A DNA stretch of 64,000 nt from Shinella zoogloeoides. GTDB lineage: Bacteria > Pseudomonadota > Alphaproteobacteria > Rhizobiales > Rhizobiaceae. Numbering within the stretch: the first letter of the stretch is position 1; the number at the start of each line of letters is the position of its first letter. Where the stretch lies: positions 248,001-312,000 of the forward strand of contig NZ_QNUJ01000004.1 of the NCBI RefSeq assembly GCF_003574625.1, in the 5' to 3' direction. Positions 20,828 through 56,217 of the stretch are shown here, piece after piece. Made by a program: the position numbers and the translations under genes. The notes below the pieces were generated by a model. That model was not told where the DNA came from. It did no database searches and saw only the letters and a list, made by a program, of their open reading frames with translations.

Positions 20828-21166
20828 TTTAATCCTCTCAGTTGAAGGCGCTCGGGTTCTTCTTTTTGTCCGGGCCTTAAGTCCAGCGGGCAGGGCTGCC
20901 CGCTTGGGCCGGATAATCGACCCGTTTTCGCCAAAAAATCAACTGGTTTTCCGCCGTCATTCCGCCCCGTTTCCCCGACAATTTCTGCGCCCGCCTCTGG
21001 TTCGGCGGAAGGCGCGACCTATCTCGCCGGTCAACAGGAGGTTGTTCAGCGGGCATTCAGGCGCCTCTGATTACGCCTTTTCAGGAAAACGGCGATTTGC
21101 CGACCGGCCGCAGAAGCCGGCCGGTCGCTCTCGAAACAACAGACGGGACACCGTGAGGACAGAACG
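20828..21166. other. 339-bp divergent intergenic region
   Basis: The region separates the binding-protein gene (minus) from the OmpA-like gene (plus) and must hold both promoters. I see no coding frame and no clear promoter boxes. Its only distinct element is a leader hairpin at 21101-21127. Confidence 0.5.
21101..21127 (+). other. Hairpin in the leader of the OmpA-like gene
   Basis: CGACCGGCC (21101-21109) pairs with GGCCGGTCG (21119-21127), 40 bp before the start codon. It may stabilise the mRNA or modulate translation. Confidence 0.45.
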
Positions 21167-52316: not shown

Positions 52317-54245
52317 TCAGTAGCCTGCCGCCATCAGCTCCGCATGGGAGTCGAAGAAGCGCTCGAGGCCGTACTGCTTGCCGAACATGATGTCGTGCTG
52401 CAGGAAGCGGAAGTCGCGCACCAGCGGGTCGAGCGTCTTCTTGCGCGCCCAATCGGGCGTGGCGTTGCCCTTGGCGTCGATCAGCATGTAGCGGTCGATG
52501 ACGCGCAGCTTGTCGTGCACCGCGCCGAGGAAGCCGGTGTAGTAGGGGTGCTCGTAGCCCGCTTCCTTGAGGATGTAGTAGGAGAGGAATGCCGGGCTGA
52601 TCGTGCCCACTTCCTTCTCCACGCCGGTCTTGTTCGACCAGATGACGAGCGGGGTCTCGTGCTCCTTCTTCATCTGCTCGGCCGAGCCCTTGCGCGAGGC
52701 GGTGATGCCCTGCATGTAGCCGGATGTCTTGTAGACCGTGTTGAGCGGCGGCAGGTGGTCGCCGAAGACGACGATGATCGTCTCGCGGTCGCGTTCCTTC
52801 GCCCAGTCCATCAGCATCTTGAGGCTCTGGTCGGCTTCCTTCACGCCCTGGGCGTAGCTTGCCAGCATGCGGTTCTCGCGGGCGTCGAGCTTGCCGTCGA
52901 TGGCGATGTCGGTCTTCTTGTAGCGGCCGTCGTCATAGGGGCCGTGGCCCTGCAGCGTGACGGCGAAGAAGAAGAACGGGTTTTCCTGCGCGTCCGCCTG
53001 GCGGATGATTTCCTTCGTCAGCGCCTCGTCCGAGGTGAAGTTGCCGCGCTTTGCCAGCGGCGGCATCTGGTCGACGTCCTTGAAGGCCTCGAAACCGAAG
53101 GCCTTGTAGACGCTGGTGCGGTTCCAGAACCAGCCGGAGAACGGATGGATGGCGCGTGCCGTATAGCCTTCCGCGCGGAAGAACGTGGCGAGCGAGGGGA
53201 TCGGCTTGCGCACATATTGCTGGTAGGGGATGCTGCCGGTCGGCAGGAAGGCGTTGGAGAAGCCCGTCAGCGCCTCGAATTCCACATTGGCCGTCAGGCC
53301 GCCGAATTCCGGCGAGAAGACGTTGCCGCTGGCGTTTTCGCGGATGACCGGCATCGGATCGGGCGACAGCTTGACGTTCTCAAGGCGCGTCGGATCCCAG
53401 AGGGACTCGCTCATCACCACGATGACGTCCGGCTTGGAGCGGTGCGTCGTGCCGGCCGGCAGGGGCTTGGACGGAATCTTGTCGATGGCGTCGGTCATGT
53501 AGCCGGCAGGCGCCTGCACGTTCGCCATCGGCAGGTTGATCGCGAAGGCCATGACGAAGCCGTTATGGCGGTAGTTCTCCGCCTGGTCCCACATGATCGG
53601 GAAGACCTTCAGCCGGTCGCGCACCCAGGAGAAGTCGTTGTAGTCCATGATGGACACGAATCCGGCGAGCAGCGGCAGCGTGACGGCAAGGCGCGTCAGG
53701 CGCTCCTTCCTGGTCAGCGGGCGGAAGCGGCGCCAGGCGAAGATCCACAGGGCGATGAGGCCGGCGACCGCGGCGAGAACGGTCAGCGCAAGGCCCGCGG
53801 CGGTCCACGGGCGGTCCTGCACCAGCACGGGCATCAGCTCGAGGATCTGGCGGCCGAAAAGCAGGTCGGTCGGATAGAGCGGGTCGGTAAGGAACACCTG
53901 CTTCTGCTGCGAGATGACGCCCATCAGCACGACGAGCGGGGAGACCAGCAGCACGGCCTTGTGCTGGCGGCCGATCAGCGCGTCGATGGCGAGATAGAGC
54001 AGGAAGAACATGCCGGCGGTCGTCCAGCCGGGCTGCTGGAGATTGGTCAGATAGGCATAGGTCTGCCCGAGCGAGCCACGCGTGATGAGTTCGACGACGA
54101 CGACGGTGGCAAGCGCCAGGAGAAACGAGACGGCCAGCGAGCGCAGAACCGCCAGCGCCTTGGCATGGCGCGCGAAAAAGCCTGCCTCTGCGGCGGAAAT
54201 CTCGGTGGCTTCGATTGCCACGGCTGCGGAAGTGAACAGGGCCAA
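52317..54245 (-). CDS. LTA-synthase-like sulfatase, putative phosphoglycerol transferase
   Basis: A 642-residue inner-membrane protein. Five spans (about 30-205) precede a periplasmic sulfatase/LTA-synthase-type domain. GGLTANVEFEALTGFSNAFLP (about 312-332) holds the likely Thr nucleophile, SESLWDPT starts the domain and VVFGDHLPPL has the metal-binding DH. It resembles phosphoglycerol transferases that decorate periplasmic cyclic glucans, such as CgmB of Sinorhizobium, but other LTA-synthase-like enzymes are possible. The start is a TTG at 54245 after GGAGAAGG. A Pho box directly upstream fits a phosphate-sparing control. Its by-product diacylglycerol is the substrate of dgkA. Confidence 0.82.
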   Translation of the reverse strand: MALFTSAAVAIEATEISAAEAGFFARHAKALAVLRSLAVSFLLALATVVVVELITRGSLGQTYAYLTNLQQPGWTTAGMFFLLYLAIDALIGRQHKAVLLVSPLVVLMGVISQQKQVFLTDPLYPTDLLFGRQILELMPVLVQDRPWTAAGLALTVLAAVAGLIALWIFAWRRFRPLTRKERLTRLAVTLPLLAGFVSIMDYNDFSWVRDRLKVFPIMWDQAENYRHNGFVMAFAINLPMANVQAPAGYMTDAIDKIPSKPLPAGTTHRSKPDVIVVMSESLWDPTRLENVKLSPDPMPVIRENASGNVFSPEFGGLTANVEFEALTGFSNAFLPTGSIPYQQYVRKPIPSLATFFRAEGYTARAIHPFSGWFWNRTSVYKAFGFEAFKDVDQMPPLAKRGNFTSDEALTKEIIRQADAQENPFFFFAVTLQGHGPYDDGRYKKTDIAIDGKLDARENRMLASYAQGVKEADQSLKMLMDWAKERDRETIIVVFGDHLPPLNTVYKTSGYMQGITASRKGSAEQMKKEHETPLVIWSNKTGVEKEVGTISPAFLSYYILKEAGYEHPYYTGFLGAVHDKLRVIDRYMLIDAKGNATPDWARKKTLDPLVRDFRFLQHDIMFGKQYGLERFFDSHAELMAAGY

Positions 54246-54257
54246 GGCCTTCTCCGG

Positions 54258-54297
54258 GTGTCATAAAACTTTCGTGTATCTGTCATACGGATGTCAT
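54258..54297 (+). promoter_or_regulatory. Pho box (PhoB site), four 11-bp-phased units
   Basis: Four seven-base units start exactly 11 bp apart: GTGTCAT (54258), CTTTCGT (54269), CTGTCAT (54280) and ATGTCAT (54291). The last two, with a four-base spacer, read CTGTCATacggATGTCAT and match the PhoB consensus with one change. The site begins 13 bp upstream of the phosphoglycerol transferase start (minus strand) and about 240 bp upstream of nadE (plus strand), and its orientation is that of the plus strand. Confidence 0.7.
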
Positions 54298-54537
54298 CTT
54301 GAACAGAACATGAATGGCTTGCCCAACGTTTCCGGCGTGCTTTGGTTCCTTCTGTTGCATTGCGGCAATGGTCGCGAACCCCCTGAAAAACGACGGATTT
54401 TGCCGAAATCGAATGCAAACCGGCCGCCGTTCATTCCCAAAACGCCAGCCATGCTCTAAAGAGCGTATCGACCGTCCGTCGTTTCCTCCGGCATCGCGCG
54501 GGAAAGGCGGACACGAGCAGGAGACGGGTCCGCAGAC

Positions 54538-56217
54538 ATGACTTCCGAGACTGAAAAGACCACGCTGCGCATCGCTGTCGCGCAATTGAACCCGACGGTC
54601 GGCGACGTCGCCGGCAACCTCGCCAAGGCGCGCGCCGCCCGCGAGGATGCGGCCCGGCAGGGCGCCGATCTCCTGCTCCTGACGGAACTCTTCATCTCCG
54701 GCTATCCGCCGGAGGATCTTGTGCTCAAGCCAGCCTTCCTGAAGGCCTGCCGCCGGGCGATCGACGACCTTGCCGCCGATACGGCGAAGGGCGGCCCCGG
54801 CGTCGTCATCGGTTTTCCGCGCCAGGACGAGACCGGGCGATACAATGCCGTCGCCGTGCTCGACGGCGGCAAGGTGATCGCGGTGCGCGACAAGGTGGAC
54901 CTGCCGAACTACGGCGAGTTCGACGAGAAGCGCGTCTTCGACCAGGGCGCCATGCCCGGCCCGGTCAATTTCCGCGGCGTGCGGCTCGGCATTCCGATCT
55001 GCGAGGATATCTGGGGCGATCTCGGCGTCTGCGAGACGCTGGCCGAGAGCGGCGCGGAAATCCTGCTGTCGCCGAATGGCTCGCCCTATTATCGCGGCAA
55101 GGTGGACATGCGCCATCAGGTCGCCCTGAAACAGGTGATCGAGACCGGCCTGCCGCTCCTCTACGCCAACCAGCTCGGCGGGCAGGACGAACTTGTCTTC
55201 GACGGCGCGAGCTTCGCCTTCAACGCGGACAAGACGCTCGCCTTCCAGATGAGCCAGTTCGAAGAGACGATCGCGCTCACCACCTGGAAAAAGCACGGCG
55301 GGAGCTGGGTCTGCGACGGCGGGCCGATGTCGCGCATTCCCGAGCGGGAGGAGGCGGATTATCGCGCATGCCTTCTCGGCTTCCGCGACTACGTCAACAA
55401 GAACGGCTTCAAGAATGTCGTGCTCGGCCTTTCCGGCGGCATCGACTCGGCGATCTGCGCGGCCATCGCCGTGGACGCGCTCGGTGAGGAGCGGGTGCGC
55501 TGCGTCATGCTGCCCTACCGCTACACATCGAAGGACTCGCTGAAGGACGCGGCCGATTGCGCGAAGGCGCTCGGTTGCCGCTACGACATCGTGCCAATCG
55601 AGGCGCCGGTCAGCGGCTTCCTCTCTTCGCTCTCCGAGCTTTTCGAGGGGACGGACGAGGGGATCACCGAGGAGAACCTTCAGAGCCGCGCGCGCGGCAC
55701 GATCCTCATGGCGATCTCCAACAAGTTCGGCTCGATGGTCGTCACGACCGGCAACAAGTCGGAAATGTCGGTCGGCTACGCCACGCTTTACGGCGATATG
55801 AACGGCGGCTTCAATCCCATCAAGGACCTCTACAAGATGCAGGTCTACGGCCTGTCGCGCTGGCGCAACGGGCATGTGCCGCCGGGCGCGCTCGGCCCCT
55901 CGGGCGAGGTCATTCCGCACAACATCATCGACAAGGCTCCGTCCGCGGAACTGCGGCCCAACCAGACCGACCAGGATTCGCTGCCGCCTTATCCGGTGCT
56001 CGACGACATCCTCGAATGCCTCGTCGAAATGGAGATGAGCACGGAGGAGATCGTCGCGCGCGGCCACGACGCGGCGACCGTCCACCGCATCGAGCACCTG
56101 CTCTACATCGCCGAATACAAGCGCCGCCAGTCCGCGCCGGGCGTGAAGATCACCCGCAAGAATTTCGGCCGCGACCGCCGCTACCCGATCACCAACCGCT
56201 TCCGTGACCGGGGGTAG
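54538..56217 (+). CDS. nadE: Glutamine-dependent NAD+ synthetase
   Basis: A 559-residue two-domain enzyme that amidates nicotinate adenine dinucleotide to NAD+. The N-terminal nitrilase-type glutaminase (about 10-270) has its Glu in TELFISGYPPEDL, Lys in KVDLPNYGEFDEKR and Cys in GIPICEDIW. The C-terminal NAD synthetase (about 280-559) has the P-loop LSGGIDSA near 299-306. Length matches the eukaryote-like two-domain form. A terminator follows before the NYN gene. Confidence 0.96.
   Translation: MTSETEKTTLRIAVAQLNPTVGDVAGNLAKARAAREDAARQGADLLLLTELFISGYPPEDLVLKPAFLKACRRAIDDLAADTAKGGPGVVIGFPRQDETGRYNAVAVLDGGKVIAVRDKVDLPNYGEFDEKRVFDQGAMPGPVNFRGVRLGIPICEDIWGDLGVCETLAESGAEILLSPNGSPYYRGKVDMRHQVALKQVIETGLPLLYANQLGGQDELVFDGASFAFNADKTLAFQMSQFEETIALTTWKKHGGSWVCDGGPMSRIPEREEADYRACLLGFRDYVNKNGFKNVVLGLSGGIDSAICAAIAVDALGEERVRCVMLPYRYTSKDSLKDAADCAKALGCRYDIVPIEAPVSGFLSSLSELFEGTDEGITEENLQSRARGTILMAISNKFGSMVVTTGNKSEMSVGYATLYGDMNGGFNPIKDLYKMQVYGLSRWRNGHVPPGALGPSGEVIPHNIIDKAPSAELRPNQTDQDSLPPYPVLDDILECLVEMEMSTEEIVARGHDAATVHRIEHLLYIAEYKRRQSAPGVKITRKNFGRDRRYPITNRFRDRG

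Follow-up and report, generated by a model that had tools for sequence, protein, structure and literature searches.

A conserved PhoB-type site beside a candidate FeuP motif in the predicted promoter region of a phosphoglycerol-transferase gene of Shinella zoogloeoides

In the 64,000-nucleotide stretch of Shinella zoogloeoides DNA analyzed here (the window), a minus-strand gene of the phosphoglycerol-transferase type and a plus-strand gene, nadE, diverge from a shared intergenic region. A Pho box lies close to the start of the transferase gene and is oriented away from it, which raises the question of which of the two genes the box serves and whether PhoB bound there would switch that gene on or off. 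The features concerned are listed in Table 1.

Table 1. Features of the transferase–nadE region, in window coordinates
Feature	Position	Strand	Remarks
LTA-synthase-like/phosphoglycerol-transferase gene	52317–54245	−	642 aa, TTG start; predicted target
Ribosome-binding site GGAG	54252–54255	−	6 bases before the TTG start
Pho box, four 7-base units	54258–54297	+	Units in 11-bp phase; points away from the minus-strand gene
TATGAC, predicted −10 of the transferase gene	54282–54287	−	Inferred; inside the Pho box; transcription start predicted at about 54275
TTCATGTTCTGTTCA (TTCA-N7-TTCA), candidate FeuP-binding motif	54300–54314	−	At the far edge of the box; points at the transferase gene
nadE, glutamine-type NAD+ synthase	54538–56217	+	Divergent neighbor; not the predicted target

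Anatomy and rarity of the Pho box

The box consists of the units GTGTCAT (54258–54264), CTTTCGT (54269–54275), CTGTCAT (54280–54286), and ATGTCAT (54291–54297), with a step of 11 bp throughout. According to the relevant passage of PMC3131613, a Pho box comprises at least two 7-base units resembling CTGTCAT with 4 bases between them, and the window box has these units and this spacing. The sequence-only reading of this DNA had claimed four units in exact 11-bp phase and had proposed a scan for PhoB-type units; the positions bear out the claim, and when both strands of the whole window were scored for four TGTCAT units at 11-bp steps, the box ranked first with 22 of 24 matches, versus 16 of 24 for the best place not overlapping it. 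A weak four-unit score near position 21134 was inspected and dropped. The same reading had put the box 13 bp before the start codon, a distance that needs correcting to 12 bases.

Within the 5.4-Mb genome, CTGTCATNNNNATGTCAT has one exact copy, and allowing up to two mismatches yielded 15 places as compared with one for a backwards control. The pair TGTCAYNNNNNTGTCAY (TGTCAY-N5-TGTCAY) occurs exactly at three places, one of them in the window box, and at 31 places with at most one mismatch (control, 3), many of the one-mismatch places being located within long open frames. The window scan, the genome counts, and shuffles together ruled out a chance origin of the four-unit box. One single-mismatch pair, at 1501–1517 of locus L183, lies 81 bp before a minus-strand gene (269–1420) and points at it; the product is a family-21 glycosyltransferase weakly similar to HpnI, so that PhoB may induce a gene for a phosphate-free glycolipid here.

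The remaining two exact TGTCAY-N5-TGTCAY sites precede btaA and orfA-pit. The site of btaA (DUF3419) is found 101 bp upstream in forward orientation, pointing at the gene, and that of orfA-pit (PhoU_div and PHO4) is found about 25 bp before the start in reversed orientation, pointing away. The upstream regions of pstS-type genes at five Shinella loci carry a weak three-unit forward box (13–14 of 18) that includes a TTTCGT-type half-site, as does the second unit of the window box, whereas upstream regions of pstC, tried as a Pho control, turned out to be the wrong place. PhoB itself is encoded beside pst genes (344.6 bits, family cut-off 296.2).

Conservation of the box and assignment to one of two divergent genes

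Conservation was assessed in two partly overlapping sets. The titled set comprises the 80 highest-ranking loci out of 538 titled matches (hereafter, the best 80), and the family set comprises 26 good homologues, namely, 25 from 60 relatives searched plus the window genome, with shorter and weaker matches excluded. The closest homologues among the best 80 are from Shinella (88–90% identical; S. daejeonensis, 73%), and one same-genus genome has a homologue that is 92–93% identical.

Read on the gene strand, the reversed pair ATGACA-N5-ATGACA scores at least 10 of 12 in 78 of the best 80 loci and 11 or 12 in 67 of them, as compared with 5 of the best 80 for the forward pair at the lower threshold; Markov shuffles reach 10 of 12 in 1.3% of cases. 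Spacing matters: an 11-bp step gave 78 loci, and steps of 8, 9, 10, 12, 13, and 14 bp gave 9, 6, 0, 3, 1, and 2, respectively, among the same best 80. Of the backwards control words, TACTGT in duplicate reached 10 of 12 in none of the best 80 and ACAGTA in duplicate did so in 21, because of which a score of 10 alone is weak evidence. In the family set, each of the 26 homologues, that of the window genome among them, scores 11 or 12. The absence of the units from close relatives, which the sequence-only reading had named as an outcome that would speak against a PhoB site, is thus not what the two sets show.

The S. meliloti orthologue is preceded by TTCATCCCCTGTTCAAGATGACAGTCGTATGAC, in which the second unit is weakened. 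Three distant homologues (L032–L034) have three Pho units (15–16 of 18) and lack the FeuP motif described below, which indicates that the Pho box is independent of FeuP.

The units are oriented as they would be in a plus-strand promoter, since the boxes of btaA and pstS point at their genes, and the sequence-only reading had accordingly offered activation of nadE as its alternative. We consider it very unlikely that PhoB acts on this box to activate rightward transcription toward nadE. The box is 240 bp away from nadE, and the −10 element of a rightward promoter would fall on the FeuP motif, which is kept at every locus of the best 80. Furthermore, the box follows the transferase gene. nadE lies within the locus in 66 of the best 80 (once at just 58% identity), and the box is retained, in unchanged orientation, beside five kinds of divergent neighbor: NadE, PD40, nitroreductase, acyltransferase, and GH25. 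These neighbor types were assigned by Pfam from a single example of each type, except that two were used for PD40; the acyltransferase was assigned by Pfam in L032 and by eye in L033. The PD40 case is weaker evidence, since S. meliloti has a TolB-family gene downstream of nadE on the same strand, so that nadE may simply have been lost there.

We also searched for nadE elsewhere in 16 genomes, comprising those of 13 of the 14 loci that lack an adjacent nadE (L149 was excluded) and G027, G028, and G034. A nadE orthologue was found elsewhere in two of them (L274 and L275), where no unit pair above 8 of 12 occurs within 400 bp of the gene, whereas the transferase genes of the same genomes (L032 and L033) keep pairs scoring 11. 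The other 14 genomes yielded distant nadE matches only, of which one per genome was scanned (that of L276 being a 265-residue frame rather than a full NadE); none has a unit pair above 9 of 12. As far as the sequence allows, nadE was thus rejected as the target on the basis of orthologues located elsewhere without the box and of boxes kept beside other neighbors, and the claim that the box activates nadE finds no support. On these comparisons, the box is a real and conserved PhoB-type site, and it belongs to the transferase gene. Closer to nadE, at about 54429–54467, Shinella and its near relatives share a second conserved block, TTCATTCCCAAA...ATGCTCTAAAGAGC, which may be the promoter of nadE itself.

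A candidate FeuP motif in register with the box

FeuP is the response regulator of an osmosensory system tied to cyclic-glucan export. Next to the Pho box, we found a TTCA-N7-TTCA motif, which the sequence-only reading had missed and whose placement beside a Pho box is new here. The motif is present on the gene strand in 80 of the best 80 loci (shuffles, 0.75%) and in 23 of the 26 family homologues, and other spacings (N3–N6 and N8–N12) occur in 0–2 of the best 80; in two rows of the promoter alignment (L085 and L014), the anchor sat on a second, upstream TTCA pair. The motif itself is a published candidate site. In the excerpts of Schlueter 2013 (PMC3616915), TTCA-N7-TTCA appears as Motif 3, located within 40 nt upstream of the start sites of 12 genes, five of which are FeuP-dependent, and is proposed as the FeuP site of feuN and ndvA. 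As compared with these Motif 3 promoters, the window promoter has an additional Pho box downstream.

The window genome encodes a regulator (L237) that shares 90.5% identity with the annotated FeuP of S. meliloti and is followed by a histidine kinase and preceded by a small frame, as in a feuN-feuP-feuQ operon. The motif before this feuNPQ-like operon (upstream of L237:2148, minus strand), TTCATTTGCCATTCA, is identical to the one that stands 68 bp before feuN in S. meliloti, and at the Shinella transferase gene, the motif begins 68–69 bp before the start codon. Both features looked for in a FeuP-dependent promoter, a motif pointing at the gene and a FeuPQ operon in the genome, were found. A fully shared FeuP regulon is made less likely by ndvA, a FeuP target in S. 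meliloti with TTCA-N7-TTCA at −321: the exact motif is missing within 350 bp of ndvA at all 20 Shinella loci (L039–L042 and L044–L059), and among 23 ndvA-type loci, it was seen only in L043, which is from another genus. A looser form of the motif is likewise absent within 700 bp of ndvA in the window genome. Another FeuP target may exist at L269 (1501–1516, minus strand), where GTTCATCTTCGGTTCA, which is FeuP-like, is located 69 bp upstream of the gene for a small His/Arg-rich, probably secreted protein that has no Pfam match.

In all of the best 80 loci, the best Pho pair is in an 11-bp register with the FeuP motif (our own count). Two layouts were observed, with the Pho pair at 17+11k bases from the motif start in 52 of the best 80 (Shinella, Sinorhizobium/Ensifer, and others) and at 14+11k bases in 28 of the best 80 (L131–L160 except L133 and L143). 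In the 14-base layout, the final A of the second TTCA also belongs to the first Pho unit. The −10 element of the transferase gene was predicted from its sequence and from the distance to be expected between such an element and a motif confined to the 40 nt before start sites, and this predicted element is not kept in the 28 shifted-layout promoters among the best 80. With the predicted start, the FeuP motif would span about −39 to −25, and the Pho units would cover roughly −22 to +18.

Among 15 response-regulator loci of the genome, two have TTCA-N7-TTCA upstream, the FeuP-like one and L242, which we take to be CenR. At L242, TTCACGCAATGTTCA stands approximately 145 bp before the response-regulator gene and fits both the FeuP candidate motif and a CenR matrix of published sites, which means that the FeuP and CenR motifs overlap, and one may sometimes have been mistaken for the other. 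Repeats at 11 bp could in principle be read by another regulator of the OmpR family, above all CenR, at the Pho-like box, the TTCA motif, or both. When reversed, both the box (TGACATCCGTATGAC) and the TTCA motif (TGAA-N7-TGAA) formally fit the CenR word TGA-N8-TGA, CenR also controls envelope genes, and the best CenR score in the promoter, 9.2, exceeds the median for published sites (8.7) and is just above the highest value from 40 shuffles (9.1). However, this best match (ACACGAAAGTTTTAT) lies inside the box but off the TGA..TGA pair, the L242 upstream region scores 10.9 with a different word (TCACGCAATGTTCAG), and both further exact matches to the box precede Pho genes. The btaA region, too, scores 10.3, which means that the matrix discriminates poorly. 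We regard use of the repeats by CenR or another OmpR-family regulator as very unlikely. ChvI motifs, compared by eye, are unlike the box.

The transferase gene and its proposed repression by PhoB

The product of the transferase gene has a sulfatase-fold domain. Its match to the lipoteichoic acid synthase family (50 of 970 bits) is far under the cut-off, and the nearest solved relative by sequence is the phosphoglycerol transferase GacH (E = 2.5e-24), with which it shares a G-G-x-T-A-N-x-E-F stretch. The earlier description of the gene as LTA-synthase-like, or as a phosphoglycerol transferase, agrees with this domain and this relative. Host and acceptor differ from those of GacH, which are presumably Streptococcus and a cell-wall polysaccharide. 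The promoter is followed by GGAG near the start in most aligned rows.

The window gene also has the LTA-synthase-type phosphoglycerol-transferase domain by which CgmB is characterized, and its activity is presumed to be the same as that of CgmB. Judging from the family, the FeuP motif, and earlier work on cgmB, the enzyme probably decorates cyclic glucan. Osmotic control of cgmB was reportedly described by Wang et al. in 1999. cgmB corresponds to SMc04438 of S. meliloti and, in two comparative genome papers, is reported for one strain only, whereas the window gene is widespread and occurs in an S. meliloti record. The two are likened by presumed function rather than by sequence, and the single-strain listings call for caution in equating SMc04438 with the window gene. 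PMC10315480 names CgmB solely in a figure legend.

We consider it likely, if well short of certain, that the transferase gene has a two-signal promoter, with activation by FeuP and repression by PhoB at low phosphate. The region 54252–54314 would constitute this promoter and read both signals. FeuP would bind the TTCA motif and recruit RNA polymerase to the weak −10 element (54287–54282 in the direction of transcription), and transcription would start near 54275. Under phosphate scarcity, the four units would be filled by PhoB~P, which would cover the −10 element and the start together with the beginning of the transcript, and the gene would be off; phosphoglycerol from membrane phospholipid would then no longer be moved to the periplasmic glucan. 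Binding, start site, the sign of both effects, and glucan as the acceptor are what we infer from the sequence.

The Pho genes of the genus, btaA and orfA-pit, share the box, which is itself conserved in relatives, and orfA-pit provides an internal yardstick for repression. In the parts of PMC8829014 consulted here, Pi stress in S. meliloti puts btaA in the group of highly induced genes and pit1 in that of the most repressed ones. The orfA-pit operon of S. meliloti is described as repressed under Pi starvation, and its Pho box, in contrast to most others, as lying immediately upstream of the start codon (PMC3131613, in excerpt). Of 20 Shinella genomes searched, 19 have orfA (G005 gave no match), and in all 19, a reversed box is found 50–51 bp before the orfA family match, scoring 12 of 12 in 18 genomes and 11 of 12 in one. 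The window gene resembles orfA-pit in having a reversed box close to the start codon and in encoding a product that would be useless or wasteful when phosphate is scarce; the differences are that orfA-pit has two good units rather than four and that it serves transport rather than envelope decoration. Because the layout is the same, reversed and start-proximal, repression of the transferase gene by PhoB is the most likely reading, and the original suggestion of a repressing box fits the comparative tests, in that the box follows the transferase gene and not nadE and is laid out as at orfA-pit.

Phosphate limitation lowers, rather than raises, phosphoglycerol substitution. This argues against activation of the transferase gene by PhoB from the reversed site, for example, for recycling phospholipid head groups, as does the position of the box over the predicted −10 element and start, in the layout of the repressed orfA-pit box. 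PhoB can act from unusual positions, and the transferase reaction would release diacylglycerol usable in lipid remodeling; even so, we deem such activation unlikely.

If repression by PhoB is correct, the loss of phosphoglycerol from these glucans at low phosphate would have a direct cause in transcription, and glucan decoration would act as a phosphate-saving reserve. To our knowledge, PhoB-repressed genes are few in rhizobia, and the transferase promoter adds a conserved and structurally clear candidate. It would also tie two two-component systems, one osmotic (FeuPQ) and one for phosphate (PhoRB), to a single envelope gene, and it offers a simple promoter test of the old observation that the cyclic glucans of rhizobia are mainly neutral under phosphate limitation. 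For the broader proposal, that Shinella, Sinorhizobium, and Rhizobium have glucan decoration under one promoter, turned on by FeuPQ and off by PhoB, with sites that overlap and so would be mutually exclusive in 28 of the best 80 loci, we see the chances as evenly balanced. The main texts of two S. meliloti Pi-stress papers contain none of the words cgm, glucan, and nadE, and among the matches listed, no title joins PhoB, FeuP, and the transferase gene; the tables of Yuan 2006 may already contain the box.

In S. meliloti Ak57 (CP090106.1, L304:5849–7800), a frame change breaks the orthologue of the transferase gene, for which the record gives no protein; an early stop was seen in none of the best 80 loci. 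CP090106.1 is a 3.7-Mb replicon labeled pSymB, yet it carries nadE, ndvA, and feuNPQ, and it therefore looks like a wrongly labeled chromosome. On the plus strand of the window, a 640-codon open frame (52344–54266) runs antisense to nearly the whole transferase gene and is probably the shadow frame of a G+C-rich gene.
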